Origin: Streptomyces sp. NBC_00442
Lineage (GTDB): Bacteria > Actinomycetota > Actinomycetes > Streptomycetales > Streptomycetaceae
Direction: 5' to 3'
DNA length: 64,000 nucleotides
Assembly (NCBI RefSeq): GCF_036014195.1
Contig: NZ_CP107918.1
Span: 2,480,001 to 2,544,000 of the forward strand
In this document: positions 7,242-48,320 of the stretch, in pieces
Layout of the letters: each line of letters starts with the position of its first letter
Numbering within the stretch: the stretch's first letter is position 1
The notes under the pieces: generated by a model
Told to the model about the DNA's origin: nothing
What the model saw: only the letters and a program-made list of their open reading frames with translations
Databases searched by the model: none
Translations under genes and position numbers: made by a program

Positions 7242-8180
7242 TCAGGCGGCGATGGCGGCGCGGCAGAGCGCGCGGCCTCGGCGGGCGGTGTCAAGGTCAT
7301 CGGCCTGGTCCTCGTTGGCGGTGGTGCCAGACAGGAAGGCGGCGGCTCGGTCGAGTTCCTCTCGGCAGGCTCCGCAGACGTCACCTCGGCGGCCCTGGGG
7401 GAAGGGGGCTCGACAGACGTCGCAGCGGTCGCGGGTGTCCGGTGCCGGGGGAGCCTTGGGCGTGGGCTTGGCCGGCATCTGGTTGCGCAGGCGGTAGGTG
7501 ACCAGGGCCGCAGCGGAGTCGACTCGTTCGGGGAGGCGCGTGCTGAGGACGGCGGTGATCTTCATGGTGCTGTGGCCCTCGGCGAGCCACTCGGCGGCAA
7601 GGGGCGCGAGGCGGAGTACCTCGTTCGTGCTGAGCTTGAGGCGGCTGTCGATGGCGCCGAGGTGGGCGAGGGTTGTAGCTGCCTGGCCGGTCTCGGCGTC
7701 AGCCGGGGCGGTCGGGGCGTTCTTCTCGCCGGAGGCTTCATCCTCCTCCGCGTCGACCTTGGGGGCCTTGTCGGCCTGGACCTCGGTGGAGGGGTCGGGG
7801 AGGAGGTTCTTTTTCTGGTTCTTATCCCCCTTGGGGAGATCGCCGACGTTCCGAAGCCTCGGTGCACCGACCGCCGGAATGCGGCTCATCGGCAGGTCGG
7901 AGACGTGGGTCTGCGTGCCCCACAGGCCCGTCTCGGGGTCCTGGCCGCGCTCCCGGCGCAGATAGCCCGCGTCCTCCAGGGCGCTGAACGCCTTGGCTAC
8001 GGCTCGCCGGCCTTCGGAGACCTGCTCCGTGACGGTGTCGATAGTGGCCTTGGCGCCGTCCGGCATGGACAGCAGCCGGACCAGAAGGCCCACGGCGGTG
8101 AGCGACAGCCGCTCGTGTCTGGCTGCGGCGTTGGGCACGACCACGAAGGCGCGGTCGTGCCGGTTACGATGCACTCGCAT
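7242..8180 (-). CDS. Winged-helix DNA-binding protein with zinc-ribbon C-terminus
   Basis: The 312-residue protein starts like a family found on actinobacterial phages and plasmids: a basic N-terminus, then LTAVGLLVRLLSMPDG and an ALEDAGYLRRERG segment typical of a MarR- or DnaD-type winged helix. The middle (residues 110-165) is low complexity and charged. The C-terminal third has CDVC and CGAC pairs about 16 residues apart, a zinc ribbon. Such proteins are often replication initiators or regulators. It is the first gene of the leftward arm and starts 23 bases from the large hairpin at 8203-8245. Confidence 0.65.
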   Translation of the reverse strand: MRVHRNRHDRAFVVVPNAAARHERLSLTAVGLLVRLLSMPDGAKATIDTVTEQVSEGRRAVAKAFSALEDAGYLRRERGQDPETGLWGTQTHVSDLPMSRIPAVGAPRLRNVGDLPKGDKNQKKNLLPDPSTEVQADKAPKVDAEEDEASGEKNAPTAPADAETGQAATTLAHLGAIDSRLKLSTNEVLRLAPLAAEWLAEGHSTMKITAVLSTRLPERVDSAAALVTYRLRNQMPAKPTPKAPPAPDTRDRCDVCRAPFPQGRRGDVCGACREELDRAAAFLSGTTANEDQADDLDTARRGRALCRAAIAA

Positions 8181-8202
8181 CGAGAGCCAACCCCTCTCGG
8201 TG

Positions 8203-8245
8203 ACGGCCCCGGGTAGGTGTTAGCGCACCTGCGACCCGGGGCCGT
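8203..8245. terminator. Large 12-bp hairpin at the divergent boundary
   Basis: ACGGCCCCGGGT (8203-8214) pairs perfectly with ACCCGGGGCCGT (8234-8245), and an inner AGGTG/CACCT pair extends the structure. It lies just upstream of the leftward gene start at 8180, so it could be an attenuator, a transcription block or a packaging-protein site. Confidence 0.5.
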
Positions 8246-8287
8246 TTACGTTCTGTCCTGCGCAACGTACGACATAGTGTCACTCGT

Positions 8288-8302
8288 TTGCAAGACTTGA
8301 AC
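8288..8302 (+). promoter_or_regulatory. Stoperator-like 15-mer, copy 7
   Basis: Reads TTGCAAGACTTGAAC on the plus strand, upstream of the rightward late operon. It differs from copies 5 and 6 only at position 9. Confidence 0.65.
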
Positions 8303-8513
8303 CTAGAGCTCGGGAGATGACCCCTGTGTGACCGGCGTCACGCCGAGGAGTCTTTCCGGATCGCTCCGCCGTCTCCGTATATATAAGTAGAAGGCGCTGC
8401 CGCTAAGGCTTTCCGCTTTCTTAATTGGGCCCCTCCGGGGCCCACAGATTGAAGTCTCCAATCCCTTTCCGCCGCTGCTACCACCTGCTTTTTGGTCAGC
8501 GATTGGAGGGCTT

Positions 8514-8825
8514 ATGGCTTGGTCTACCTCAGACCGAAGGGCTCGCCTTCCAGCGAATTGGCCCCAGATCAGGATTCGCATCCTCCGGCGTGACGGACAC
8601 AGGTGCACAGCCAGAGATCAGTACGGTGTGCGATGTTCCGAGCCCGCTACGGATGTCGACCACATACAACCCGGTGACGACCATCGAGAGGCCAACCTGA
8701 CATCCCTTTGCGGGTGGCATCACCGGGTTAAGAGCTCAAGGGAAGGGGCCGCGGCTCAAGCTGCCGCGCGCCGCCATGCCAGACGCAGGTTCCGCCGGAC
8801 AGAAAAACACCCGGGCCTGCTTTGA
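8514..8825 (+). CDS. HNH endonuclease
   Basis: The 103-residue protein has the HNH fold signature: a basic N-terminus, RILRRDGHRC, then VDHI (first His) and NLTSLCGWHHRVKSS with the Asn and last His. ATG 8514 follows TTGGAGGGCTT. Small HNH nucleases next to terminases are needed together with the large terminase for cos cleavage in several siphoviruses, and this gene sits directly before the small terminase. It is the first gene of the late operon. Confidence 0.88.
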   Translation: MAWSTSDRRARLPANWPQIRIRILRRDGHRCTARDQYGVRCSEPATDVDHIQPGDDHREANLTSLCGWHHRVKSSREGAAAQAAARRHARRRFRRTEKHPGLL

Positions 8826-8864
8826 CCGCGCAGAGCTCCAGGCCCACGCCTGTTGAGCCGCGCC

Positions 8865-8894
8865 GGCCCCCGAGGACCCCTTCCCTCGGGGGCC
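8865..8894 (+). terminator. Hairpin between HNH and terS
   Basis: GGCCCCCGAGG and CCTCGGGGGCC form an 11-bp perfect stem with an 8-base loop, followed by TTCTG. There is no long T-run, so read-through into the terminase genes is likely. Confidence 0.5.
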
Positions 8895-8916
8895 TTCTGA
8901 CTTGTGGAGGTGTGAG

Positions 8917-9345
8917 ATCCCGGGCCCCGTACCAAACCGCGAGGCGGATCTTGCCCGCCCGCGCTCCCGAAAGGGAGCCGACGTCCAGCCCGTGGCCAAG
9001 GGCCTCATGCGCGACGTGAAAGTCCCGAATGCCGACCGGAACTGGCATCCCATCGCCAAGCGCCTCTGGGACGCCCTGAAGTCCTCGGGCCAGTCGGACT
9101 TCTACCAGAACAGCGACTGGGCCTTCGCCTACTCACTGTGCGAAGACCTGTCGTATTACAAGACGGCCGGCAAGCGAAGCGGCCAGATGCTTCAGACAAT
9201 TTACTCCGCCTTCGAGCGTCTCCTCGTCACCGAAGGCGACAGACGCCGCGTGCGCATCGAACTCCACGAGCCCGAGCCGGAGGAGCAGTCCGCGGCCGTG
9301 CTCGCCATCGCCGACTACAAGAAGGATCTCGGACTCGCCGAGTAG
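8917..9345 (+). CDS. terS: Terminase small subunit, probable ATC start
   Basis: The reading frame encodes a small terminase-type protein: an N-terminal GPVPNREADLARPRSRKG basic stretch, a region with PNADRNWHPIAKRLWDALKS, and a YYKTAGKRSGQMLQTIYSAF segment. In phages it binds DNA and recruits the large subunit. The start is unusual. GGAGG (8906-8910) is followed six bases later by the in-frame codon ATC (8917), exactly where related proteins begin (M)PGPVPNR. The only canonical in-frame start nearby, TTG 8902, lies upstream of that GGAGG. I annotate from ATC 8917, about 142 residues. Confidence 0.8.
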   Translation: MPGPVPNREADLARPRSRKGADVQPVAKGLMRDVKVPNADRNWHPIAKRLWDALKSSGQSDFYQNSDWAFAYSLCEDLSYYKTAGKRSGQMLQTIYSAFERLLVTEGDRRRVRIELHEPEPEEQSAAVLAIADYKKDLGLAE

Positions 9346-9368
9346 CTCCGGGGAGGTGAGCCCACAAC

Positions 9369-11019
9369 ATGAAGGCTCCCCCGCAGCTCACCAAGGAGGA
9401 GATCGACGCCCTCGAACCGAGCTTCCTCGGGCCCACGTGGCTACGCGGGCCGGACGGCTCGTGGAAGCTCCCCGAGCACACGCTCGGGTGGCAGATCGCA
9501 GGCTGGTGCGCCGAGTTTTTGCGGGCCGACGACGGCGGGCCCTGGCGCTTCACGCGCGAGCAGCTCCGCTGGGTGCTCTGGTGGTACGCCGTCGACGAGA
9601 ACGGCCGCTTCACCTACCGCAAGGGCGTCTTGCAGCGCCTCAAGGGCTGGGGCAAGGACCCGCTCTTGGCCGTGGTCTCCCTGGTCGAGTTCGTCGGCCC
9701 CTCCCGCTTCTCGCACTGGCAGAACGGGCAGCCGGTCGGCATCCCCCACCCCCAGGCGTGGGTCCAGATCGCGGCCGTCTCGCGCGACCAAACGCGCAAC
9801 ACCATGACCGTGATGCCGGGCCTCATGAGCGACAAGCTCATTGAGACGTACGGCATCAAGGCCGGAGCCGAGCTAATCCGTGCAAACGGCGGCCGACAGC
9901 GCCTTGAGGCGGTGACAAGTAGTTATCGCGCCCTGGAAGGGGCGCGGTCTTTAGCGATCCACGTTCGTTGTTCTTAACGAAACGCATCACTGGGTCGAGG
10001 GTAATAACGGCGACAAGATGTACGCCACCATCGACGGTAATGCTACGAAAAAGGATTCGCGCTACCTAGCGATCACCAACGCATATCTGCCCGGCGAGGA
10101 CAGCGTCGCCGAGCGAATGCGTGAGGCTTTCGAGAAGATTCTCGAAGGCCGGGCTGCCGACATCGGCTTCATGTACGACAGCGTAGAGGCGCATCCCGCG
10201 ACTCCGCTGACGCCGGAAGCGATTCGGATTGTTCTCCCGAAGATTCGCGGCGACGCCATTTGGCTGCGAGTCGAGACAATCCTTCAGTCGATTCTCGATA
10301 CGACGATCGCGCCGAGTCGCAGCCGTCGAATGTGGCTGAACCAGATCGTCGCGTCCGAGGACGCGGTGTACTCCCCCGCCGACTGGGACGTTCTGCGGGA
10401 CGACTCGAAGGTCCTCCAGCCCGGTGACGAAGTCGTATTGGGCTTCGACGGCGGCCTCCGCGACGACTCGACTGCTTTGTGCGCACTCCGCGTCAGCGAT
10501 GGATTCGCCTGCGTGTTGGGCCTCTGGGAGAAGCCGGACGGCCCGGCCGGCAAGGAGTGGGAAGTCCCGCGTGATCGGGTAGACAGCGCAGTTCACGAGG
10601 CGTTCTCCACCTTCAGCGTGCAGGGCTTCTACGCGGACGTGGCTCTCTGGGAGTCGTACATCTCCGAATGGTCCGCGACGTACGGCGAGGGCCTGGCCGT
10701 CAAGGCTCCGGGAAAGGACTCAATCGGCTGGGACATGAGGACCAGCCTGAAGGCGTCGACCATGGCGCACGAGCGCCTGCTCCGTTCAATCCTCGACCGG
10801 AAAATCGTCCACGATGGCGACCGAAAGTTGCGCCGCCATGTTTTGAATGCGCGACGTCGTACCAACAATTACGGCCTGAGCTTTGGCAAGGAATCACGCG
10901 AGTCTCCGCGGAAGGTCGATGCCTACGCGGCTTTGATGCTTGCCCACGAAGCCCTTTTCGACCTTCGAGCCCGAGGCCGGAAGACCCGTATGCGCACCGG
11001 GCGAGGCTATTTCCTTTAA
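9369..11019 (+). pseudogene. terL: Terminase large subunit, interrupted by a 10-base insertion
   Basis: The first frame (from ATG 9369 behind GGGGAGGTGAG) runs to a stop at 9975-9977. It encodes the N-terminal ATPase half including KGWGKDP, a Walker A-like element, up to SYRALEGARS. The second frame, open from about 9955 to 11019, continues exactly with STFVVLNETHHW (Walker B plus catalytic Glu) and the nuclease half with FDGGLRDDSTAL and RKVDAYAALMLAH. Joining them needs removal of 10 bases (9947-9956, GTCTTTAGCG, or an equivalent alignment). The ATPase is therefore split just before Walker B and packaging should fail, unless the bases are a sequence artefact or are bypassed. Codon use also shifts near 9870. 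Confidence 0.85.
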
Positions 11020-11023
11020 TTGA

Positions 11024-11038
11024 TTGACATAGTTTATC
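11024..11038 (+). promoter_or_regulatory. Stoperator-like 15-mer, copy 8
   Basis: Reads TTGACATAGTTTATC on the plus strand in the 34-base gap between terL and the portal gene, ending 15 bases before the portal start. Confidence 0.6.
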
Positions 11039-11053
11039 TGAGGCGGTGATGTT

Positions 11054-12478
11054 GTGGTCTTCGCTGCCTCGCCCCTCGCGCTCGCACGAGAACTTCTGGC
11101 CATCCTGCATCGAGACGGCGACCGTCTGCGTCACATCGATGACTACCTGCACGGTCGGCACTCGGACCCCTACATGCCGCCCCAGGCCGATGACGAGTAC
11201 AGGCTCCTGGCGCGGCGCGCGGTCTCGAACTGGATGCCCCTGCTTGTCTCGACCCCGGCCCAGGCCCTCTACGTGGATGGCTATCGTCCAGGTTCGGGAA
11301 CCTCGACTTCGTCCGAGCCGGACTCGGAGACTCCCGAGTGGGAGCACTGGCAAAGGTCCCGTCTCGACGGCCGCCAGGCCGCCGTCTACCGGGGCGCGCT
11401 GACGTATGGGCACGCCTTCACCGTGACGGAGCGAGGCCGCTCCGGGGACGTGGTCACCAAGGGGCTCTCCGCCCTCAAGACGAGCGCTCTCTATGAGGAC
11501 CCGGCCAACGACCACACACCCCATGCGGCATTGACCGTGACGACGTGGCCGCAGGGCGACCAGCCGGGCACCGCCCGGCTGTGGGATGCCAAGCGGGAGT
11601 ATGTGGTCACCTTCCGGTCGCTGAGCGATGAGAAGTCGGTGCGCCTCCAGGGCGGCACCCTTCACGGTTCTTCGGAGTGCCCGGTCACGCGCTTCGCCGC
11701 CTGGGTCGACCTGGAGGGAAGGACCCTCGGCGTCATCGAGCCGATGATCTGTGTCCAGGACCGCATCAACCAGACGGTGTTCGACCTCTTGCTGGCCCAG
11801 TCCTACGGCAGCACGAAGGTGCGGACGGTCACGGGCATGGCCCCTCCGGTCCAGCGCGATCCGGAGACGGGCGAGCCGGTGCTCGACTCCCAGGGCAACC
11901 CGATCCCGGTGCGGATCAATCACAACAGTCGCCGATTCCTCTTTGCCGAGGACCCCGACGTCAAGTTCGGCTCGCTGGACGAAACCCCGCTCGGGGGCTT
12001 CATCGACAGCATCGAGATGAGCATCCGGCACCTTAGCGCCCTTGCCCAGGTGCCCCCGCAGACGATCTTGGGACAGATCGCCAACCTGTCTGCGGAGGCC
12101 CTTCAAGCCGCCGAGGTGTCCCTCAGCCGGATGATCTCCGAGGTCCGCACGGGCTTCGGCGAGTCCTGGGAGAGGGTCTTCAGGCTCGCGGGCGAACTGG
12201 CCGGCAACGCGTCCTCCGCCGAGGACTTCCGCGGCGAGGTCGTCTGGCGCGACATGGAGTCGCGCAGTCTCGCCCAGTCGGCAGACGCCCTTGGCAAGCT
12301 CCGCACTCAGCTCGGCATCCCCGAGCGCGGCCTGTGGCGGCGCGTCCCGGGCGTCACGCAAACCGAGCTGGAGGACTGGGAGCAGATGCGCGAGGACGAC
12401 GACTCGGTGGGCCAGCTCGCGGGTGCCCTCAACCGCGCAACCCCCGATGAGGCGGCGCCGATCGAGACGGCGGCGTGA
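11054..12478 (+). CDS. Portal protein (SPP1 gp6-like)
   Basis: The 474-residue protein has the SPP1 gp6/actinophage portal layout: an N-terminal clip-stem part with DDYLHGRHSDPYMPPQADDEY, a central beta-rich part with GALTYGHAFTVT, and a C-terminal helical part with QVPPQTILGQIANLSAEALQ, the typical crown-proximal motif. GTG 11054 follows GAGG ten bases upstream. Portals form the dodecameric ring for DNA entry and exit. Its stop overlaps the GTG of the next gene. Confidence 0.9.
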   Translation: MVFAASPLALARELLAILHRDGDRLRHIDDYLHGRHSDPYMPPQADDEYRLLARRAVSNWMPLLVSTPAQALYVDGYRPGSGTSTSSEPDSETPEWEHWQRSRLDGRQAAVYRGALTYGHAFTVTERGRSGDVVTKGLSALKTSALYEDPANDHTPHAALTVTTWPQGDQPGTARLWDAKREYVVTFRSLSDEKSVRLQGGTLHGSSECPVTRFAAWVDLEGRTLGVIEPMICVQDRINQTVFDLLLAQSYGSTKVRTVTGMAPPVQRDPETGEPVLDSQGNPIPVRINHNSRRFLFAEDPDVKFGSLDETPLGGFIDSIEMSIRHLSALAQVPPQTILGQIANLSAEALQAAEVSLSRMISEVRTGFGESWERVFRLAGELAGNASSAEDFRGEVVWRDMESRSLAQSADALGKLRTQLGIPERGLWRRVPGVTQTELEDWEQMREDDDSVGQLAGALNRATPDEAAPIETAA

Positions 12479-31998: not shown

Positions 31999-32032
31999 GT
32001 TACTACCCGAGTCGGACTTGTTACTACCGAGT
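31999..32032. promoter_or_regulatory. Direct GTTACTACC(C)GAGT repeats, candidate IclR operator
   Basis: GTTACTACCCGAGT (31999-32012) and GTTACTACCGAGT (32020-32032) are 21 bases apart, two helical turns. They lie upstream of the IclR gene and at the very end of the oxidoreductase gene. Confidence 0.45.
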
Positions 32033-32971
32033 TGTCTTGATCGTCACTTTACCCGTGGTCTTGCGGCTTTCGAGATCAGAGTGGGCCTGGGCCGCGTTGC
32101 TGAGTGCGTAGCACGGACCGATGACCGGGCGAAGATCACCGCGAGCGGTTGCCTCGAACAGGGCCTTGATCGAGTCCCGCAGTGCGTACCGGACGCCGTA
32201 GAGGTTCGGGAGCCAGAAGCCTGAGACGGTCTTGGATGCCTGCATGAGTTGGGCAACAGGGGCTTCGCGCTGGTCGCCCGAGACGCAGCCGTAGACGGCC
32301 ATGTGGCCCCGGGGCGCGAGTGCGGCGAGCGTGGCGTCGAACACCTCGCCGCCAGTCATCTCCAGCGCGCGCGTGACAGGGCCCTCGTTCGCGTCGAGGA
32401 TGCGGGCCGTCAGGTCCTGATGCGTGGATGAGTCAAGGACAGCGTCCGCGCCCAGGCCGCGGACAAGGTCTGCCTTCTCGGAGCTGCCGGCCAGCGCGAT
32501 CACGCGGGCACCAGCGGCTTTGGCGAGCTGGACGGCGAGGGAACCGACACCGCCGGCCGCCGCAGGGATGAGAACTGAGTCTCCCTTGCCGACCTGGAGC
32601 ACCGTGTGCAGCAGGTGCCAGGCGGACTGGCCCTGGAGAGCGAGGGCTACGGCCTGCTCATCGCTGATTTCGTCGGGCACCTCCCACGTAACTGCGCGAT
32701 GCACCAGGGCCTGTTCGGCATATCCGCCACCACGGCTTAGTGCAACCACCCTGCGGCCATCGGCGAGAGTTCCCATGACTTCATTGCCGGGCGTGACGGG
32801 GTATTCGACCGGTGCCAAGTAGCCGTTTTCTCGCAGGTGAATGTCTGCGTAGTTCACTCCAGCCCGTGAGACCTTCACCACATGATGCCCGGCGATGGGC
32901 GCAGGTGCGGGCACTTCCTGGACCTGAAGCACCTCCGGCCCGCCGGGTCTGGCTATGACAATTGCGCGCAT
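32024..32971 (-). CDS. Zinc-independent quinone oxidoreductase (MDR superfamily)
   Basis: The 315-residue enzyme starts at ATG 32969-32971, six bases behind AAGGA. ATG 32975-32977 lies too close to that site. It has the catalytic fold with MRAIVIARPGGPEVLQVQEV, AGVNYADIHLRENGY, and the NADPH-binding AAAGGVGSLAVQLAKAAGAR (about residues 138-157). It lacks the Cys/His zinc ligands of alcohol dehydrogenases. It would reduce quinones or enones with NADPH. A metabolic enzyme like this inside a phage is an accessory (moron) gene, probably controlled by the neighbouring IclR protein. Confidence 0.87.
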   Translation of the reverse strand: MRAIVIARPGGPEVLQVQEVPAPAPIAGHHVVKVSRAGVNYADIHLRENGYLAPVEYPVTPGNEVMGTLADGRRVVALSRGGGYAEQALVHRAVTWEVPDEISDEQAVALALQGQSAWHLLHTVLQVGKGDSVLIPAAAGGVGSLAVQLAKAAGARVIALAGSSEKADLVRGLGADAVLDSSTHQDLTARILDANEGPVTRALEMTGGEVFDATLAALAPRGHMAVYGCVSGDQREAPVAQLMQASKTVSGFWLPNLYGVRYALRDSIKALFEATARGDLRPVIGPCYALSNAAQAHSDLESRKTTGKVTIKTTR

Positions 32972-33040
32972 GATCATTCCTTGTGGGTGTCGCTGGAGCG
33001 ATCAACTCTAGGGTGCTGAGCGCACCCCTCCGCACCTCTT

Positions 33041-40757: not shown

Positions 40758-41027
40758 ATGGCCCTGCGCATGCTCGGTAAGGACCCCAACAGCCCTGACG
40801 GCAACTCGCCTACGATCTACGTGGACGACGAGACCGACAGGTACCTCGTCCAGGGGTTCAAGGTCCTGGACGAGGAGCGGCTCAAGCAGCTGAACCTCCC
40901 CCCGCACGAGGGGGCGGTGGAGATTCCCCGCTATATGGCGCAGTTCTTCCTGGCAGAGGACAGGGAGGCCGCTACCAAGGACACCGAGCCGGAGGTGGAG
41001 AAGGGTGTCGAATCCCCCGACGTTTAA
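40758..41027 (+). CDS. Hypothetical acidic protein of the island, 89 residues
   Basis: ATG 40758 follows GAGGAGGACATC. The protein begins MALRMLGKDPNSPDGNSPTI and has a strand-rich YVDDETDRYLVQGFKVLDEE segment. It overlaps the DUF6879 gene by 23 bases. Such small proteins commonly lie beside Scr1-type regulators in Streptomyces and may be partners of the regulator. Function unknown. Confidence 0.6.
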   Translation: MALRMLGKDPNSPDGNSPTIYVDDETDRYLVQGFKVLDEERLKQLNLPPHEGAVEIPRYMAQFFLAEDREAATKDTEPEVEKGVESPDV

Positions 41028-41517
41028 AGAGCTGTTCCGCGACTGCCAGCGGACAGCCGTCCACCTGGAAGCCCGCGACGCCTACAGCAAGACGCACTCG
41101 ACCTTCGTCGACTGGAAGGCCGGCAGGCAGATCGACCCGGCCGAGCGCTGGTCCGCATGGCACTCGATCGTCTCGGAGGCGGTCTCGCGAGGTGTCGAGG
41201 TGCGTCGAGCCCGCATCGTCTCGACGCCTGTGAGCGAGTACATCCGCTTCGAGCACGAGGTGACCGAGGGGCTCAACATCGCGGCGGGCGAGCAGGTGCG
41301 GTGGCTCCCTCGGCGGAACGCTTCGGATCTACTCGTGCCGGGCAACGACTTCTGGCTGTTCGACTCCCGGCTGCTGTACCTGAACCACTTCGACGGGGAA
41401 GGCGAACCCACAGAGCCCGAGATCACCGAAGACCCGGAGATCGCGAAGCTCTGCGAGTCGGCCTTCGATGCCATCTGGAGCAGGGCGATCCCGCATGCCG
41501 AGTTCGAAGCCCGCTAG
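41005..41517 (+). CDS. DUF6879 family protein
   Basis: The 170-residue protein from GTG 41005 (GGAGGTGGAGAAG upstream) matches the DUF6879 pattern: FKELFRDCQRTAVHLEARDA, WSAWHSIVSEAVSRGVEVRR, a FEHEVTEGLNIAAGEQVRWL segment, and a C-terminal FWLFDSRLLYLNHFDGEG. This family is widespread in actinobacteria and nearly always sits next to a helix-turn-helix/DUF5753 regulator, as here. Biochemical role unknown. It may be a signalling or toxin-like partner. Confidence 0.8.
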   Translation: MSNPPTFKELFRDCQRTAVHLEARDAYSKTHSTFVDWKAGRQIDPAERWSAWHSIVSEAVSRGVEVRRARIVSTPVSEYIRFEHEVTEGLNIAAGEQVRWLPRRNASDLLVPGNDFWLFDSRLLYLNHFDGEGEPTEPEITEDPEIAKLCESAFDAIWSRAIPHAEFEAR

Positions 41518-41543
41518 GCACCACGCATAGGACCGTCACTCCC

Positions 41544-42386
41544 ATGGAATCGGCATCTTCGAGCGCCCAGGAAGCACGCAAGGCGCTCGGGAAACGCCTC
41601 GCAGAGATCCGGGTTGCGGCCGGACTCACCAAGCGAGCCCTTTCTGAAAAACTGGAGTGGCACGAATCGAAAGCATCGCGCTTCGAGAGCGCCAAACGCG
41701 CGCCCTCGGAGCGCGATCTTCGCGAATGGTGCAGCGCATGCGGTGCTGACGACCAAGCGGACCTTCTCGTCCAGACTGCCCGCCGCATCGAGGGCATGTA
41801 CGTCCAGTGGCAACAGTTGGAGAGCGGCGGGCTCAAGCAGGCCCAACAATCAGCCCTTCCCCTTTGGGATCGGACTCAGCAGTTCCGCTTTTACTCGCCG
41901 TGGCTGATCCCTGGACCGGTGCAGACGGCCTCCTACATCAAGGCGTTGCTGACCTCCATCCGCGACCGTCGCAACACGATCGACGATGTTGACGCGGCTG
42001 TTGAGGTCCGCCTTGAAAAACAGAAGATCGTATACACGCAGCGCACATTCGCCATCCTCTTGGAGGAGAGCGCCCTCTACAACCGGATGGGCGGCACCGA
42101 TGTGATGGTGGGCCAACTCGGCTACCTGCTCAGTGCCATGGCCCTCCCCAGAGTGGCTATCGGGATCATTCCCCGCCACATCGAGCGACCGCTCATGCCC
42201 GTCGAAGGCTTTTTCATGTTCGACGACCACACAGTCAAAGTCGAACTCGTCTCAGCCCACCTTACGGTCGAGCAGGAGCCTGAACTCCGCATGTATGCAC
42301 AGACCTTCGCCGAGCTTTACGAGATGGCCGTGTTCGGCTCGGCTGCTCGGGAAATAATCACTACTGCCATCGAATCGTTCGGGTGA
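41544..42386 (+). CDS. Scr1-type regulator: helix-turn-helix plus DUF5753
   Basis: The 280-residue protein starts at ATG 41544. Residues 10-75 are an XRE helix-turn-helix (KALGKRLAEIRVAAGLTKRA, then LEWHESKASRFESAKRAPSE). Residues 90-275 are the DUF5753 domain (FRFYSPWLIPGPVQTASYIK, AILLEESALYNRMGG). Regulators of this group control adjacent DUF397 or DUF6879 genes and are linked to morphological differentiation and antibiotic production. GGCAAGT double repeats flank its operon on both sides and are the obvious operator candidate. Confidence 0.87.
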   Translation: MESASSSAQEARKALGKRLAEIRVAAGLTKRALSEKLEWHESKASRFESAKRAPSERDLREWCSACGADDQADLLVQTARRIEGMYVQWQQLESGGLKQAQQSALPLWDRTQQFRFYSPWLIPGPVQTASYIKALLTSIRDRRNTIDDVDAAVEVRLEKQKIVYTQRTFAILLEESALYNRMGGTDVMVGQLGYLLSAMALPRVAIGIIPRHIERPLMPVEGFFMFDDHTVKVELVSAHLTVEQEPELRMYAQTFAELYEMAVFGSAAREIITTAIESFG

Positions 42387-42392
42387 CCGACT

Positions 42393-42565
42393 GGCAAGTC
42401 CGGGCAAGTTCCGCTTGAGCGCGGCAAGTTCCGGCACGTTTCACTACCTCCTGGCAAGTGCGGGCAATTTCCTGGTGCTCCGGATATCTCCATCCGTAGC
42501 TTGATGCCACGGCTCCAGAACTTGCCCGGAGGAGGCTGGGATGGCTTTGGCAAGTACCGGCAAGG
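42393..42565. promoter_or_regulatory. Cluster of GGCAAGT double half-sites
   Basis: Copies: GGCAAGTCCGGGCAAGTTCC (42393-42412), GGCAAGTTCCGGCACGTTTC (42423-42442), GGCAAGTGCGGGCAATTTCC (42453-42472), an inverted half GAACTTGCCCGG (42518-42529), and GGCAAGTACCGGCAAGG (42549-42565), the last inside the start of the next gene. Half-sites are 10 bases apart, one helical turn, so proteins would bind side by side on one face. Confidence 0.75.
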
Positions 42566-42924
42566 CGTTGGGGGCGGCCGAGGAATCGGCCGAGAATCCC
42601 CCCGTCGACACCGAAGGAATTTCCTTACGCACGGATTCGATCCTCGCGATGCGGATGGGGTCCACGACCCGCGAGGACATCGACGAGGTCACGCCGGCAG
42701 TCGTCCAACACCTGAACCTCCTGCTCGACCAGGACCTGGGGGCGGACGAGGACGCCGAGGTTCAGCAGCTCGTCCGCAAGGGTCTTACCCTGATCGACTC
42801 CAAGGAGCGCCCGACCGCGGAGACGCCGACCTTCGGGGCGTGGCTCTACGCCCGGGACGTCGCTACGCTCACGCGGCGGCTGCTCTGGGTCTACACCGAG
42901 CGCAACGGGCTGGGCGCGCCATGA
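42541..42924 (+). CDS. Unknown protein heading the cell-wall gene row
   Basis: The 127-residue protein starts at ATG 42541 behind CGGAGGAGGCTGGG. Its first codons contain an operator-like repeat. It is acidic and helical (TREDIDEVTPAVVQHLNLLL, then RDVATLTRRLLWVYTERNG). Codon 29 is TTA (42625-42627), rare in Streptomyces and read by the bldA tRNA, so translation may depend on development. No family is recognised. Confidence 0.65.
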   Translation: MALASTGKALGAAEESAENPPVDTEGISLRTDSILAMRMGSTTREDIDEVTPAVVQHLNLLLDQDLGADEDAEVQQLVRKGLTLIDSKERPTAETPTFGAWLYARDVATLTRRLLWVYTERNGLGAP

Positions 42925-43460
42925 GCGTCAAGGAAGACCAGATCATCCGGGAGCTCTCCCACTATCTCCACGAACACCCCGGCGACCAGATGGCGTTGAT
43001 GCCGGTGTACGACGCCGCCCTCGACCACTCGCGGCGCCAAGCCTGCACGCACGACCAGCGCTGTCCGCTCGTGATGACGGCGGCCGTCGTCGTCGACGAG
43101 CGGGACCGCGTCCTGTGCCTGCGGCACCAGGGCGGCTACGCCCTCGCGGAGGCCGAGCCGGAGGATCAGGACGACTCACTCAGCGAGGCGGCCCTCCGCC
43201 TGCTGGTCGAGGAGGTCGGCATCCGGGACGTGTGGACGCAACCCGGAAACGAAGGCCCCTTCCTGGTCGACGTGACGCCCGCGAGTCAGCACGCGTATGG
43301 CCCCCGCCTCCGGGTCGGCATTCGTTACCTCTTCCGGGCACACGCAAGCGCCGTGCACTCGTCGGTGCTGGAAGCGGGCGCGGCGGCCTGGGTGCCGCTG
43401 TCCGAAGTCAGCATGCCGCCGCTCCGCGGCCGTCTGGAGAGCCTCCTGATCGGAACCTGA
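42921..43460 (+). CDS. Nudix-fold protein with degenerate Nudix box
   Basis: The 179-residue protein starts at ATG 42921 (ATGA overlap). It has a Nudix core with RCPLVMTAAVVVDERDRVLC, then EAALRLLVEEVGI where the standard box would read REL-x-EE-x-G. The Arg and the EE pair are kept, but the first Glu of REx2EE is Leu and the usual Gly-Gly before the box is not found in place. It may bind a nucleotide-like compound rather than cut it, or act on an unusual substrate. It is coupled to the following small genes. Confidence 0.72.
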   Translation: MSVKEDQIIRELSHYLHEHPGDQMALMPVYDAALDHSRRQACTHDQRCPLVMTAAVVVDERDRVLCLRHQGGYALAEAEPEDQDDSLSEAALRLLVEEVGIRDVWTQPGNEGPFLVDVTPASQHAYGPRLRVGIRYLFRAHASAVHSSVLEAGAAAWVPLSEVSMPPLRGRLESLLIGT

Positions 43461-43546
43461 TGAGCCCCCGAAACGAACAACTCGCCTACCTTGCCAGCCT
43501 TGTGATGCTCGGCGGCACCCTCCTCTACGCCATCTGGAGGGGCTGA
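43460..43546 (+). CDS. 28-residue single-pass membrane peptide
   Basis: ATG 43460 overlaps the previous stop, and its TGA 43544-43546 overlaps the next ATG, so translation is coupled at both ends. The peptide has one hydrophobic helix (LAYLASLVMLGGTLLYAIW) and charged ends. It is too short for similarity calls, but the double coupling and clean composition support a real gene that could anchor other island proteins to the membrane. Confidence 0.6.
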   Translation: MSPRNEQLAYLASLVMLGGTLLYAIWRG

Positions 43547-43794
43547 TGCACAAGCGCAAGGCTGCGGAATTGCAAGCCAAGCCGACTCCCCCTGTCGGGA
43601 CAGTCGAGCAGCGGAACAGGCCGCCGGGCGATGTGCGCATAGGCGACTTCCTGTACCTCGATGGAGCGTTCCAGCGAGTCCGGGACATGAGGGCCGCCGG
43701 CACATCAGCCCACCGCGTCTTGCACTTCACCGGGCGCGCCCCGGTGATCATGCGCGAGCCCCGGACTATCTACCGGCCCCTCGAACTTCTCTGA
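43546..43794 (+). CDS. Hypothetical protein, 82 residues
   Basis: Starts at ATG 43546 by coupling. A basic N-terminus (MHKRKAAELQAKPTPPVGTV) is followed by a small beta-rich part (IGDFLYLDGAFQRVRDMRAA, HRVLHFTGRAPVIMREP). It could be a small SH3-like or DNA-binding fold. A 60-base gap with GAGGAGCTTCGCC separates it from the epimerase gene. Confidence 0.6.
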   Translation: MHKRKAAELQAKPTPPVGTVEQRNRPPGDVRIGDFLYLDGAFQRVRDMRAAGTSAHRVLHFTGRAPVIMREPRTIYRPLELL

Positions 43795-43854
43795 CCCAAA
43801 ACCCATCCGATTATCTCTCGACCCTTCTCACCTCACGCCGCGAGGAGCTTCGCC

Positions 43855-44655
43855 ATGCGCTTCCGCAAGATTCACGGGGCCGGCAACGACTTCGTCCTGC
43901 TTACCGACCTCGGCCCGGCCGACAAAAGGGAGTGGCCGAAGGAGGCCGAACGCCTCTGCGCCAGACGTACTGGCATCGGTGCGGACGGCCTTGTCATCAG
44001 CAGCCGGGTCAGCGATGAGCCGACCGTTCTCGAAGTCGACTGCTTCAACGCGGACGGCTCGGTCGCCACGATGTGCGGCAACGCGCTGCGCTGTGCGGCG
44101 TGGGCAGCCCAGTGCGATCAGGGCTTCCGGACGATGCAGCTTCGCATGGCAGGTGTCCTGCACGAGGCAACCGTCGACACCGACTCCGTATGGGTCACAG
44201 CCGAAGTGGGTGCCATCCAGCCCCGCGTCTTACAGACGATCATCAACGGCAGGCCAACGTGGTTCGACAGCGCGCACACCGGCACGGAACACGTCGTCGC
44301 CGTCGTGGACGACGTGGACGCCATCCACGCGGAAGTGGTCGGCCGAGTCGTTCGGCACCACAAGAACGTGGCGCCGATCGGCACGAACGTCAACTTCGTC
44401 CAGCGCCTCGGCCGTCAGGCGCTCAAGATCCGCACCTACGAACGCGGTGTCGAAGCCGAGACGCTCTCCTGCGGCAGCGGGGCCGTCGCAGCCGTTGTCG
44501 TCGCCACCATGCGCGGCCTCGTCGCCAAGCGCGAAGTCACCGTTCACAACCGGGCCGGTGAACCGCTCACCGTCCGTCCGCACCACGACCGCCCGGAACG
44601 GGCCGCCTGGGTTGGCGGACCGGTCACCCAGACCTTCGAAGGGGTATTCGCATGA
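43855..44655 (+). CDS. dapF: Diaminopimelate epimerase-family protein
   Basis: The 266-residue enzyme has all family landmarks: FRKIHGAGNDFV at the start, NADGS then MCGNALRC with catalytic Cys 74, TNVNFVQ, and YERGVEAETLSCGSGA with catalytic Cys 206. Both acid/base Cys are intact, so it should be an active racemase or epimerase of the DapF fold, turning LL- into meso-diaminopimelate or acting on a related amino acid. Codon 126 is TTA (44230-44232). It overlaps the ligase gene by 4 bases. A second copy inside a mobile element is not expected for housekeeping use. Confidence 0.88.
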   Translation: MRFRKIHGAGNDFVLLTDLGPADKREWPKEAERLCARRTGIGADGLVISSRVSDEPTVLEVDCFNADGSVATMCGNALRCAAWAAQCDQGFRTMQLRMAGVLHEATVDTDSVWVTAEVGAIQPRVLQTIINGRPTWFDSAHTGTEHVVAVVDDVDAIHAEVVGRVVRHHKNVAPIGTNVNFVQRLGRQALKIRTYERGVEAETLSCGSGAVAAVVVATMRGLVAKREVTVHNRAGEPLTVRPHHDRPERAAWVGGPVTQTFEGVFA

Positions 44656-45743
44656 CCGTCTTTCTCGACTCGACCTCGAAGCAAGCGGCGCAGAACGCCG
44701 CCGAGAAACTCCGCGAGTGGGGGCGAGGCCGGCAGGGCCTCGGCGTCGCCCTCATTTACGGACCGGTGTCCGCCGAAGACAGGCTCTACCACTCCGAGTG
44801 CCCAGTCGAGCAGCGATCCGTGACCGCGCTGGGCAAGGCCCTCGAAGAGATCGGCGCGCGGTGGAACGTGCTGGACCCCACCCAGCCCGACTTCATCAGG
44901 GAGCTGGTCTCGTACGACGTGGCCCTCTCGAACCTGCACGGCCCCTACGGTGAGGACGGTCGTCTTCAGGGCCTGCTCGACTACCTTCGCGTGCCCTACT
45001 GCGGCAGCGGGGTGCAGGCATCCGCGGTGGCCGCTGACAAGATCCTCTGCAAGCGGGTCATGCTGACCCTCGGCGTCCCGACGCCCGGTTGGCGCGTCTG
45101 GTCCGGCGGACCGGTGAACTGGGGCACCCGGGACGTCATGGTGAAGCCGCCCTTCGGCGGGTCCAGCGTGGGCATGAGTCTCGTCCGTGACGCAGCCAAC
45201 CTGCCCCGCGCCCTGTCGGAGGCCGCTGGCGAAAGCGGCGACGAGGTGCTCGTCGAGGACTACGTCGTCGGTACCCCCGTGACCGTGGGAATGCTGGAGC
45301 TTCCGGGCGGCTCGGTGATCGTCTTCCCGCCGCTGACCACCGAGGCGACCGATGCCGAGTTCTACGACGCCGACACCAAACTCGACGTGGACTCGAAGGG
45401 CGCCGTCACCGTCCGGGCCGCCGAGCTGGAGCCCGTAGCGATGAACCGGATCGCCAGGGATGCCCGGACCCTGTGGGATGGGATCGGACTACGCGGCTCG
45501 GCCCGCATCGACTTCATCGTCACCGAGAAGGACGACGCGTACGTGCTGGAGGTCAACAGCACGCCGGGCATGTCCCGTGACAGCAACTTCGCGGTCGGGG
45601 CGGCGATGGTCGGGCTCACGCACACGGATGTCGTGCTGGCGATGCTTCATGAGGCCCTGGCCCGGTCGCCGTACGATGTCCCCCTGCCCACTCCCGTGTT
45701 CTCCAGCACCACGGTGACGCGGGAGGCTGCCGTCTCCCTGTAG
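44652..45743 (+). CDS. D-alanine-D-alanine ligase-like ATP-grasp enzyme
   Basis: The 363-residue protein has the Ddl pattern: HGPYGEDGRLQGLLD (residues 96-110), GSGVQASAVAADK, VKPPFGGSSVGMSLV (164-178), RIDFIVTE and EVNSTPGMSRDSNF with the Mg-binding Glu and Asn. All ATP-grasp residues I can check are present. The N-terminal substrate loop differs from common Ddl (VALIYGPVSAED), so specificity could be D-Ala-D-Ala or another D-amino acid pair. Directly coupled to the epimerase, it would join amino acids made or changed by it. Confidence 0.85.
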   Translation: MTVFLDSTSKQAAQNAAEKLREWGRGRQGLGVALIYGPVSAEDRLYHSECPVEQRSVTALGKALEEIGARWNVLDPTQPDFIRELVSYDVALSNLHGPYGEDGRLQGLLDYLRVPYCGSGVQASAVAADKILCKRVMLTLGVPTPGWRVWSGGPVNWGTRDVMVKPPFGGSSVGMSLVRDAANLPRALSEAAGESGDEVLVEDYVVGTPVTVGMLELPGGSVIVFPPLTTEATDAEFYDADTKLDVDSKGAVTVRAAELEPVAMNRIARDARTLWDGIGLRGSARIDFIVTEKDDAYVLEVNSTPGMSRDSNFAVGAAMVGLTHTDVVLAMLHEALARSPYDVPLPTPVFSSTTVTREAAVSL

Positions 45744-45756
45744 GAGCAATGCCACT

Positions 45757-46302
45757 GTGCCGCGCGCCCACGAAGTCCCCATGTGCCGACAGCTCATCAC
45801 CCCCGCCGAATGGGATCTCCACGGAGGATGGGCACTGGGAGACAGGATCGAGTGGTCCAACCGGGCGTGCGGCCTGGCGTCACTGAGAATGATTTTGCTG
45901 GCCTACGGGTGCGAGGCACCAACGGTGACGGAACTCCTGAAGCTCGCCGTAAAGCACGAGGTTTTGACCCCGCGTGGAGCGCTTCACGCGGGGATCGCGA
46001 ACCTGGCGACCGAGCTCGGAGTTCACTCCCAGGCGGAAGCCGTCCCCGTTGAAGGTCTGCTCGGCCGCCTCGACGACGCTCCGCTCATCGTGTCCGTGAC
46101 CGAGCAATTCCCCGAGGACGGCCGCAAGGGCGGGCACCTCGTCATCCTTCGCGGCTACGAGAGCGGCCCGGACCCAACCATCCACTTCCGCGACCCATCG
46201 GCCTGGGGCCAGGAGAACGACCAGGTACCGCTCAGTCGCCTCTCCCACTCATACACCGGACGCGCGATCACCTTCGCGCCCCTAAACAACGGAGACTCTT
46301 GA
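45757..46302 (+). CDS. C39-like cysteine peptidase
   Basis: The 181-residue protein is taken from GTG 45757 (GGAG nine bases upstream). ATG 45781 is an alternative. It has the papain-like triad of C39 peptidases: Cys 38 in SNRACGLASLRMIL, His 127 in KGGHLVILRGYE and Asp 146 in IHFRDPSAWG. There is no membrane or ABC part, so it is a free cytoplasmic peptidase or transpeptidase. It could trim or transfer a peptide made by the neighbouring ligase. Confidence 0.78.
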   Translation: MPRAHEVPMCRQLITPAEWDLHGGWALGDRIEWSNRACGLASLRMILLAYGCEAPTVTELLKLAVKHEVLTPRGALHAGIANLATELGVHSQAEAVPVEGLLGRLDDAPLIVSVTEQFPEDGRKGGHLVILRGYESGPDPTIHFRDPSAWGQENDQVPLSRLSHSYTGRAITFAPLNNGDS

Positions 46303-46676
46303 TGACCGAGGCAGACGGCGGAACGCGCCCGGCCGAGGGCGGCCGGACGATCGCCGTACTCGGAGAGATGCTCGAACTGGGCGACGACTCACTTGAGGCC
46401 CATCGCGAGATCGGGCGCTACGCAGCCGAGCAAGGAGTCGAGATCCTGCTCGGTGTCGGCAACAGCCCCAACGTGAAGCAACTCGTCCTCCACGCGGGCG
46501 CGGCCGGCGTACCCAACCTTGCCCTCGTTGCTGACAACGAGACCGCCGCCGACTTCCTGGAAAAGATCCTCGTGCCCGGCGACAAGGTGCTCATGAAAGC
46601 CTCACGAGGCGGCATGCTCTGGCAGATCGCCCAGCGACTCACCGGACAGCCCGTCACAGGGCTCGGGGACCACTAG
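46302..46676 (+). CDS. Free-standing MurF C-terminal domain
   Basis: The 124-residue protein begins at ATG 46302, coupled to the peptidase stop and with GGAG 7 bases upstream. It matches only the C-terminal third of MurF: GRTIAVLGEMLELGDDSLEA, HREIGRYAAEQGVEILLGVG and PGDKVLMKASRGG. MurF normally has about 450 residues and joins D-Ala-D-Ala to UDP-MurNAc-tripeptide. The ATPase core and the N-terminal UDP-binding domain are missing. The clean own start and ribosome binding site argue that it is a designed single-domain protein and not decay. Confidence 0.82.
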   Translation: MTEADGGTRPAEGGRTIAVLGEMLELGDDSLEAHREIGRYAAEQGVEILLGVGNSPNVKQLVLHAGAAGVPNLALVADNETAADFLEKILVPGDKVLMKASRGGMLWQIAQRLTGQPVTGLGDH

Positions 46677-46685
46677 GTTGGCAGG

Positions 46686-46979
46686 ATGAACGACGAGCCA
46701 CTGGAGGAGTGGGCGGAGCGCCGCGAAGCGAAGATCGGCCGACTTCGCGCTGTCCCCATCGTCACCGGCGACGGCCCCAGAGGGGCGCACCTGAACCCCG
46801 ACGCACCGCGCGCCATCGAGCGATGGAACGGCTACTTCTGGGAGCCGTACGCCTTCGCGGCCAGCCTCGCAGAGGCGAAGCGCATCCTGTACCCCGAGGC
46901 CAATACTCCCGCCGTTAGCCCGCCCGGCCTCGCGGGGCAGCCACTCGCCCCGGGCAGGGGCAGACACCGAAAGCCGTAG
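46686..46979 (+). CDS. DUF6087 family protein
   Basis: The 97-residue protein from ATG 46686 follows the family pattern: MNDEPLEEWAERREAKIGRL, GAHLNPDAPRAIERWNGYFW, and an end of GRGRHRKP. DUF6087 proteins are small Streptomyces proteins of unknown role, often next to Scr1-type regulators and accessory genes. Last gene of the island row before a terminator. Confidence 0.78.
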   Translation: MNDEPLEEWAERREAKIGRLRAVPIVTGDGPRGAHLNPDAPRAIERWNGYFWEPYAFAASLAEAKRILYPEANTPAVSPPGLAGQPLAPGRGRHRKP

Positions 46980-47145: not shown

Positions 47146-47184
47146 AAAAACTAAGGGGCCCGTCTCAAGAGAGTCGGACCCCTT
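47146..47184 (-). terminator. ychF transcription terminator
   Basis: On the minus strand, AAGGGGTCCG and CGGGCCCCTT pair with an inner CTC/GAG, and AG then TTTTT follow. It lies 48 bases after the ychF stop. It may overlap the att region. Confidence 0.75.
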
Positions 47185-47231
47185 CTGACCTGCATGTTTG
47201 CCAGATCAGCGAAGTGGTGGTATGTCACCCA

Positions 47232-48320
<1,089 letters not shown>

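Follow-up and report, generated by a model that had tools for sequence, protein, structure and literature searches.

A candidate van-like peptidoglycan-precursor cassette in a Streptomyces prophage and its relation to described precursor-remodelling systems

The gene row and its closest described systems

The vanHAX operons of actinomycetes, together with murF, combine a substrate maker, a Ddl-family ligase lacking the tyrosine equivalent to Tyr216 of Escherichia coli DdlB, a peptidase and MurF, and parts of the same kinds occur in the row of eight genes analyzed in this study. The row spans 42541-46979 of a 64,000-nucleotide stretch of Streptomyces sp. NBC_00442 (contig NZ_CP107918.1, positions 2,480,001 to 2,544,000; hereafter the window), probably lies inside a prophage, and encodes a DapF-type epimerase, a Ddl-type ATP-grasp ligase, a C39-type cysteine peptidase and a free C-terminal domain of MurF (MurFc). 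It is, with somewhat better than even probability, a mobile, van-like cassette that would reprogram peptidoglycan precursors. In outline the row would work like van/pdx-type precursor reprogramming, and it is not a member of the van family.

The likeness to vanHAX extends to individual parts, as a C39 gene follows vanX in three operons (loci L107, L201 and L202) and free MurFc groups with domain 3 of van MurF. In contrast, the row has no VanH, VanA, VanX or VanRS; DapF and C39 would fill the corresponding slots, and the row Ddl and row MurF form clades of their own. D-cycloserine clusters likewise hold a DapF-like gene (DcsC) and a Ddl-like gene (DcsG) together. However, the row DapF scored up to 108 bits against DapF structures and 75 bits against O-ureidoserine racemase (7vdy) in a search of the PDB, and Pfam revealed no further gene of dcs type in the row. 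Because the row DapF is nearer to ordinary DapF and relatives of the row add the wall-precursor ligases MurF and MurC-like, the D-cycloserine-like alternative raised in an earlier note, made from the window's sequence alone, was unsupported, while its other proposal, a cell-wall remodelling device, gained support; taken as a whole, its interpretation is partly supported.

The pdx operon of Micromonosporales consists of genes for a PALP dehydratase, a Ddl and a VanX-like protein, which to its authors suggests alternative precursor remodelling (passages of PMC8698665). Similarly, a PALP dehydratase and a Ddl replace VanH and VanA in four relatives of the row, L213, L216, L217 and L218, termed here the pyridoxal-phosphate (PLP) type; these carry C39 and MurF, a MurC-like ligase in three of the four, and helix-turn-helix-type regulators where seen, whereas pdx, as those passages describe it, has a VanX-like dipeptidase and VanRS. 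The window type differs further from pdx, with DapF replacing PALP, and C39 and an XRE-type regulator replacing the VanX-like protein and VanRS. In van loci of Ktedonobacteria, a tendency to lose vanX is accompanied by acquired genes for M15B and C39 peptidases (passages of PMC9689679), so that there, too, a C39-family gene stands where vanX tends to go missing; vanHA and vanRS are retained in those loci, though, and the term diaminopimelate epimerase is absent from that paper. In Streptococcus pneumoniae, a Nudix gene lies in an operon with Ddl and MurF, and the Nudix enzyme hydrolyses UDP-MurNAc and UDP-MurNAc-L-Ala (passages of PMC3655063). The two thus share a NUDIX gene in the company of Ddl and MurF, but the pneumococcal Ddl and MurF are the housekeeping ones, and neither an epimerase nor a C39 protein is mentioned in those passages. 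Searches of PubMed Central (PMC) returned no paper whose title or abstract describes the row. As an anti-phage system recognizable by database match the row was rejected, none of its ten row and regulator proteins matching a PADLOC model (0/10).

The eight genes are as follows.
42541..42924, + strand: 127-amino-acid protein with a weak DUF6415 match (PF19979, 16.4 bits, under the cut-off); conserved, faster evolving
42921..43460, + strand: NUDIX hydrolase-like protein (PF00293, 22.4 bits, just over the cut-off of 21.1)
43546..43794, + strand: 82-amino-acid protein with no Pfam, NCBIfam or PHROG match; kept in the row
43855..44655, + strand: DapF-type epimerase (TIGR00652, 190 bits, cut-off 114.65); both catalytic Cys present
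44652..45743, + strand: Ddl-type ATP-grasp ligase of a separate clade (PF07478, 99.6 bits, cut-off 24); Tyr216 equivalent is Leu
45757..46302, + strand: stand-alone C39-type cysteine peptidase of 181 amino acids (PF13529, Peptidase_C39_2, 33 bits); Q12, C38, H127, D146
46299..46676 (start 46299 or 46302), + strand: free MurF domain 3, MurFc (PF02875, Mur_ligase_C, 35.8 bits)
46686..46979, + strand: DUF6087 protein (PF19565, 121.5 bits); not core, present in some phage-borne copies

All eight open reading frames are intact, and four-base overlaps join the first and second genes (127-amino-acid protein and NUDIX), DapF and Ddl, and C39 and MurFc. The row of co-directional, mostly coupled genes claimed earlier is therefore real, but holds eight genes rather than nine; three more co-directional genes lie upstream of it (40758-42386). 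At E 0.1, PHROGs gave weak matches for Ddl and MurFc, clear ones for the XRE regulator and none for DapF, C39, NUDIX and the small genes.

The ligase, the epimerase, the peptidase and the free MurF domain

The Ddl-like ATP-grasp gene reported from the sequence was confirmed as an open reading frame carrying the Pfam domain, yet among the best 25 of 43 NCBIfam families matched it stayed under every cut-off. It reached 188.3 vs. 243 and 175.1 vs. 245.65 bits for the curated Ddl families, 99.1 vs. 550 bits for D-Ala-D-Lac ligases and 114.6 vs. 520 bits for D-Ala-D-Ser ligases. In the Ddl tree, ten row Ddls formed one clade (support 100/100) with an average of 32% identity to housekeeping Ddl as well as to VanA, and three Ddls of another group of relatives, type b, formed another; L025, a PLP-type relative (L208), was left out of the Ddl and MurF trees. 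At the site of E. coli DdlB Tyr216, housekeeping Ddls had Tyr (11/11), row Ddls Leu (12/12), type b His (3/3) and the PLP type Arg (5/5), while VanA-type ligases never had Tyr (13/13). Over a larger set of row loci, Leu was found in 39 of 42 and Ile in the remaining three. Residues E15, R255, D257, E270 and N272 were kept in all Ddl groups compared (12/12 each in the row), and S281 was kept in 11 of 12 row Ddls. S150 was kept in 12/12 row Ddls, but is Gly in type b and the PLP type. According to passages of PMC7691350, Ddls restricted to making D-Ala-D-Ala conserve both Ser150 and Tyr216.

Both catalytic Cys of the DapF-type epimerase, already seen in the window, were present in 40/40 loci read, and the score of 190 bits vs. 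114.65 places the protein in the DapF equivalog family. The distal-site residues N64, N190, E208 and R209 were likewise kept in 40/40 loci each, while the N157 equivalent was Thr in all 40, so the set of three Asn that hold the distal carboxylate (64, 157, 190) is incomplete; the roles of these and other residues are described in passages of PMC8225329. From the kept distal residues, a D-substrate that is DAP-like (diaminopimelate-like), or otherwise a carboxylate-bearing amino acid, is favoured. In an alignment with the second DapF of the same genome, which also holds a second Ddl and a second MurF, the row DapF showed a one-residue insertion before the second Cys loop.

The Cys-His-Asp triad claimed for the C39-like protein was borne out across loci, with Cys in 50/50, His in 53/53, Asp in 52/53 and, in addition, Gln in 48/49; the domain score together with this residue set places the protein in Peptidase C39. 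It has no bacteriocin ATP-binding-cassette transporter parts. A PDB search with the C39 profile gave a best E of 0.12, which is chance-like, and Alr0975 at an E of 0.36.

The free C-terminal part of MurF is present as its own open reading frame, as had been noted, but covers no more than domain 3, which is roughly the final quarter of a ~470-amino-acid MurF and not its last third. It matches only the end of the murF model (60.4 bits vs. a full cut-off of 288.6), and keeps the domain 3 start and the K-x-S-R motif, with Trp at a site that is Glu in row and housekeeping MurF and Asp in van MurF. The free MurFc proteins formed one clade, which in a domain-3 tree grouped with van MurF (95/92; van alone 78/95, free alone 82/87), the alignment being short and the branches long. 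Two derivations were tried and rejected: MurFc as a shortened row MurF, since it sits with the domain 3 of van-cluster MurF and apart from the full MurF of sister rows, and row MurF as van MurF2, as row MurF is 57% identical to housekeeping and 48% to van MurF, and the three form separate clades. The lone domain was earlier thought to bind or scaffold and not to ligate. Consistently, it has no ATP or UDP-MurNAc domain, it is under purifying selection, and it is fused in frame to C39 at two loci, as a single intact open reading frame in L084 and in damaged form, with the C39 front broken, in L087. The predicted structure of the L084 protein comprises a C39 fold and MurF domain 3 (VIA-align re-examining the Foldseek top 1000). 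The C-terminal domain of Mur ligases binds the amino acid or dipeptide to be added. A paper on Mpl heads its section on this domain 'tripeptide binding region' (passages of PMC3060825).

Recurrence, variant gene sets and the prophage setting

The earlier suggestion that the row be sought in other genomes and checked for linkage to mobile elements was followed with 53 tabulated loci (the window, L047-L090, L034, L037, L041, L042, L091, L092, L155 and L156), genes in unannotated relatives being called with a purpose-written GC-frame script. DapF-Ddl-C39-MurFc with the XRE/DUF6879 pair was complete in 29 of the 53, window included; two more were complete without the regulator, three were complete with a full MurF, and 19 had genes absent or broken. 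The regulator pair belongs to the upstream genes, which are as follows.
40758..41027, + strand: 89-amino-acid protein of no named family, first gene of the unit, overlapping the DUF6879 gene; kept in 10/15 stretches (14 loci read plus the window)
41005..41517, + strand: DUF6879 protein of 170 amino acids (PF21806, 191.8 bits); dN/dS 0.145
41535..42386 (start 41535 or 41544), + strand: XRE-type regulator, HTH_31 and DUF5753 (PF13560, PF19054); kept alongside the row

Neighbourhoods differed among the 14 loci read, and no family outside the row was common to more than four of the 15 stretches, which tells against genes fixed at one chromosomal site in relatives. Median pairwise ratios of nonsynonymous to synonymous substitution (dN/dS), from rows free of stops and with coverage of at least 85%, were 0.16 for C39, 0.17 for MurFc (325 pairs of 26 sequences), 0.19 for DapF, 0.24 for Ddl, 0.24 for NUDIX, 0.32 for the 82-amino-acid protein (17 sequences) and 0.40 for the 127-amino-acid protein. 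These results indicated that MurFc is under purifying selection and that the row goes beyond chance, since its order with the regulator recurs in 29/53 loci and dN/dS is 0.16-0.24 for C39, MurFc, DapF and Ddl. The row is also unlikely to be a mere duplication of housekeeping genes in unconserved order; its order recurs elsewhere and, although second copies exist in the genome, the row Ddl forms a clade of its own.

Searching with MurFc gave matches in 197/199 Streptomyces genomes, the close short form being found in 15 of the 199, own genome included, with a clear gap between it (E <=4.4e-29) and ordinary MurF (E >=3.9e-18). A protein search, returning proteins of 0.55-1.75 times the query length (69-218 amino acids), yielded 116 proteins, 107 of them of 98-139 amino acids, some on short contigs; the 107 were mostly named 'glutamate ligase domain-containing' or a Mur ligase, and where an organism was named it was nearly always Streptomyces. 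For C39, a scan with its alignment over one genome per species (84,980 species), restricted to two short patterns, found 43 loci; a class-wide survey gave a match at 1e-15 in 4/394 genomes, own included, and a survey around a Streptosporangiaceae-type genome a match at 1e-20 in 6/200. Among plasmid records, 16 of 72,556 matched C39, three of them at 60-73% identity, while none of 50,697 phage records did.

Relatives exchange parts of the set. A full MurF is the last gene in L074 and L091 (Ddl broken in both), L078 (Nocardia miyunensis), L079 and L155, and DapF-Ddl-C39-MurF is complete in L078, L079 and L155; only the first part of MurF is left in L080 and L082. The four row MurFs tested (L074, L078, L079, L155) scored 420-428 bits against the murF cut-off of 288.6, and Mur motifs, under the names we take them to have, are visible in their alignment. 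In L155 a MurC-like ligase precedes the row (297.8 bits vs. a cut-off of 335.1), and L043-L045 hold a trio Ddl-C39-MurFc without DapF. The PLP-type sets on Streptomyces plasmids (L213, L216, L217) consist of MurC-like, MurF, Ddl, a serine/threonine-dehydratase-like enzyme and C39, with MurF on the opposite strand in L213 and L216 and an annotated NUDIX gene adjoining the set in L216; no MurC was present in the stretch of L218 seen, and sets with broken members occur in L093/L214 and L215/L198. Not all of these are independent: L093 and L214 are loci on two plasmids with identical proteins, L198 and L215 are a single record, and L213 and L095 are near-identical. On the Streptomyces chartreusis plasmid of L217, the set lies beside annotated tgmB/tgmC (ATP-grasp ribosomal peptide maturase; 10482-12462). 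In L208 (G133, 7710-10558), a PLP-type MurF stands beside a MurC-like gene split into two open reading frames, with no Ddl or C39 match in the stretch.

In vanHAX operons, C39 lies directly after vanX in L107, L201 (where it overlaps vanX) and L202. The van names were assigned by NCBIfam for VanX and VanA of L107, by BLAST to L104 proteins for L201 and L202, and by eye for VanX and VanH of L103, L104, L106, L108, L115 and L116, whose ligases group with that of L107. The van MurF set also includes L105, one of eight MurF-paralogue stretches, which has MurF and a VanS-like kinase (by eye) and no vanA or vanX.

The prophage is real, with genes at 10-40 kb of the window for terminase, portal, protease, major head protein, tape measure, endolysin, DnaB-like helicase, primase and exonuclease. 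A possible right end is marked by the following repeat.
47153..47243, no strand: att-like repeat, 74% identical over ~90 bases to G000:C1:2472408-2472503; at the 3' end of ychF (47232-48320, - strand)
The partner repeat sits ~7.6 kb before the window, and L090 (IMG/VR) is 97% identical to the window at the DNA level up to 47272 and then ends, while colinearity of L065 (Streptomyces sp. TBY4) continues through ychF. Judging from the weak repeat and the end of the L090 match, a ~55-kb prophage probably adjoins the 3' end of ychF and carries the row as cargo close to its right end. The DUF6087 gene is matched at 69-89% in L033/L047, L065 and L090, and over a short part at 48% in L039/L069. Elsewhere in the prophage, a gene at 32024-32977, which we take to be quinone-oxidoreductase-like, separates the late genes from those for replication.

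The proposed mechanism and competing explanations

We propose that the DapF-type epimerase would supply a D-configured substrate, in the slot of VanH or VanT, and that the Ddl-type ligase, altered at the residue marking D-Ala-D-Ala-only ligases, would make a non-standard dipeptide, in the slot of VanA. C39 and MurFc would remove the normal D-Ala-D-Ala product, in the slot of VanX, so that the altered dipeptide gets used, MurFc acting as a recognition unit for the ends of dipeptides or stem peptides and as the partner of C39. The altered dipeptide would then be joined to UDP-MurNAc-tripeptide, a step that would fall to the cassette MurF in distant kin and to the host MurF in the window type, while the NUDIX protein may remove UDP-linked precursors, as its S. 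pneumoniae precedent suggests. The purpose could be to evade agents recognising D-Ala-D-Ala, or else wall hydrolases. By analogy across the sets compared, the common grammar may be a substrate maker, a Ddl without Tyr216 and a peptidase, with or without Mur ligases.

A wider proposal, which we put forward tentatively and consider doubtful on balance, is that van logic has been assembled independently, as plug-in parts, on actinomycete mobile elements: makers (DapF-type, PLP-type or VanH), a Ddl without Tyr216, C39 and cassette Mur ligases would together give a new wall terminus, and in the Streptomyces branch a lone domain 3 of van origin would have taken the place of MurF and would steer C39 to D,D-dipeptide ends. 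If true, glycopeptide-type wall reprogramming would be a modular principle, its parts exchanged on prophages, plasmids and relaxase-bearing DNA of soil actinomycetes; searches for VanH, VanA or VanX would miss this form, and a first use would be found for a free Mur-ligase C-terminal domain and for a stand-alone C39 without transporter. The wall terminus itself is not readable from sequence, but is open to simple enzyme assays.

Several findings weigh against the van-like cassette. VanX, VanH and VanRS were not found in the window row with Pfam and NCBIfam: no VanH-type dehydrogenase was among the ten row and regulator proteins, and the row gave no match to the M15 dipeptidases of VanX type, the C39 peptidase being present instead. 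As the window type lacks a full Mur ligase, its product must be acceptable to the host MurF; free MurFc groups with van MurF and cannot be taken simply for a row MurF cut short. Ser150 is unchanged in the row Ddl, and the PLP-type Ddls of L213 and L217 exceed the cut-off of one D-Ala-D-Ala ligase subfamily (250.5 and 246.3 vs. 243); the PLP-type sets are also distant from the window (in L213, C39 32% and Ddl 35%). With N64, N190, E208 and R209 kept in all loci, the row DapF may be just another LL/meso-DAP epimerase. Both fusion loci lack DapF and have a broken Ddl, so the ligase may be dispensable for C39-MurFc, and most C39 relatives from Streptomyces have no Ddl or MurF in the parts examined. 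Finally, among eight MurF-paralogue stretches chosen irrespective of C39, only L107 had it after vanX, L201 and L202 having been chosen because of their C39.

The alternative that survives best, though unlikely, is that the product of the row is a small diffusible peptide, trimmed by the row itself, that includes an epimerised amino acid; here DapF would epimerise, Ddl ligate and C39 cleave, the MurF parts being borrowed as peptide ligases or binding domains. The window Ddl falls below every curated cut-off among the best 25 of 43 families, XRE-type regulators and the PLP-type relative beside tgmB/tgmC would fit secondary metabolism, and DapF-like racemases outside lysine synthesis are known, namely PddB and DcsC (passages of PMC8225329). 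In contrast, no exporter or tailoring gene is conserved outside the row, as no outside family is common to more than 4/15 stretches; relatives bring a full MurF over the murF cut-off and MurC-like ligases, C39 kin lie inside vanHAX operons, and the row DapF is nearer to DapF than to O-ureidoserine racemase.

Next, and again unlikely, the row might be spare wall-precursor capacity, with an extra DapF and Ddl raising flux or bypassing inhibitors of the housekeeping Ddl such as D-cycloserine while the wall peptide stays unchanged. This would suit the second DapF, Ddl and MurF of the genome, the retention of E15, S150, R255, D257, E270 and N272 in all 12 row Ddls and of S281 in 11, and the PLP-type Ddls that pass a D-Ala-D-Ala subfamily cut-off. 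However, Tyr216 was lost in 42/42 row Ddls and kept in 11/11 housekeeping Ddls, and spare capacity leaves unexplained C39, MurFc and the sets in which a PLP enzyme replaces DapF.

Thirdly, and improbably, the row could be a phage-borne moron that changes the wall against the entry of other phages or against foreign endolysins. The window row does stand between phage early genes and the probable phage end, and at least three related early-phage proteins adjoin the row in five of 52 other loci (L047, L048, L065, L070 and L090; few and partial in L048). In contrast, the remaining 47 showed at most two in the stretch examined, a count in which unrelated phages would be missed; a MobA-like relaxase gene was present in 14/55 stretches (three of these being query loci or their copies), PADLOC recognised nothing, PHROGs were weak for the core genes, and no C39 match was found in the phage collection. 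The row is not tied to the window's phage, and kin of it also lie on plasmids.

That the free MurF domain is a decaying remnant and the row a broken pathway is very improbable: decay is common (genes absent or broken in 19/53 loci) and distant kin have full MurF, but the selection test (MurFc median dN/dS 0.17) largely refutes it, and the 107 short proteins, the single MurFc clade, its in-frame fusion to C39 and its grouping with van MurF and not row MurF also stand against it.

C39 proteins related to that of the row were also found in other surroundings. A type-b C39 match at 1e-12 was present in 31/150 Streptomyces genomes. In 18 Streptomyces C39 stretches, parts of which were examined, a Ddl match near C39 was seen only in L191, L198 and L207, and also in L196, besides two van cases (L201, L202) and a MurF fragment in L203. 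The same protein of 402-403 amino acids (starting MEFRQSSKL) adjoins C39 in six of the 18 (L197, L199, L200, L204, L205, L206); we take it to be an alanine aminotransferase, which may link C39 proteins to alanine metabolism. The genome of the window has a second C39, of the type-b group and 54% identical to that of L044, at G000:C1:2337734-2338333 (L109, 7705-8361), with no Ddl or MurF match within its 16-kb stretch. In L209 (7473-10963; G079, 78% completeness), a gene presumed to be MurG-like, a C39 gene and the start of MurF stand together. In Planomonospora sp. ID82291, a single genome carries two row-type C39 copies (L075, L076); neither is accompanied by an intact Ddl or MurF, and one forms a tandem with a type-b C39.

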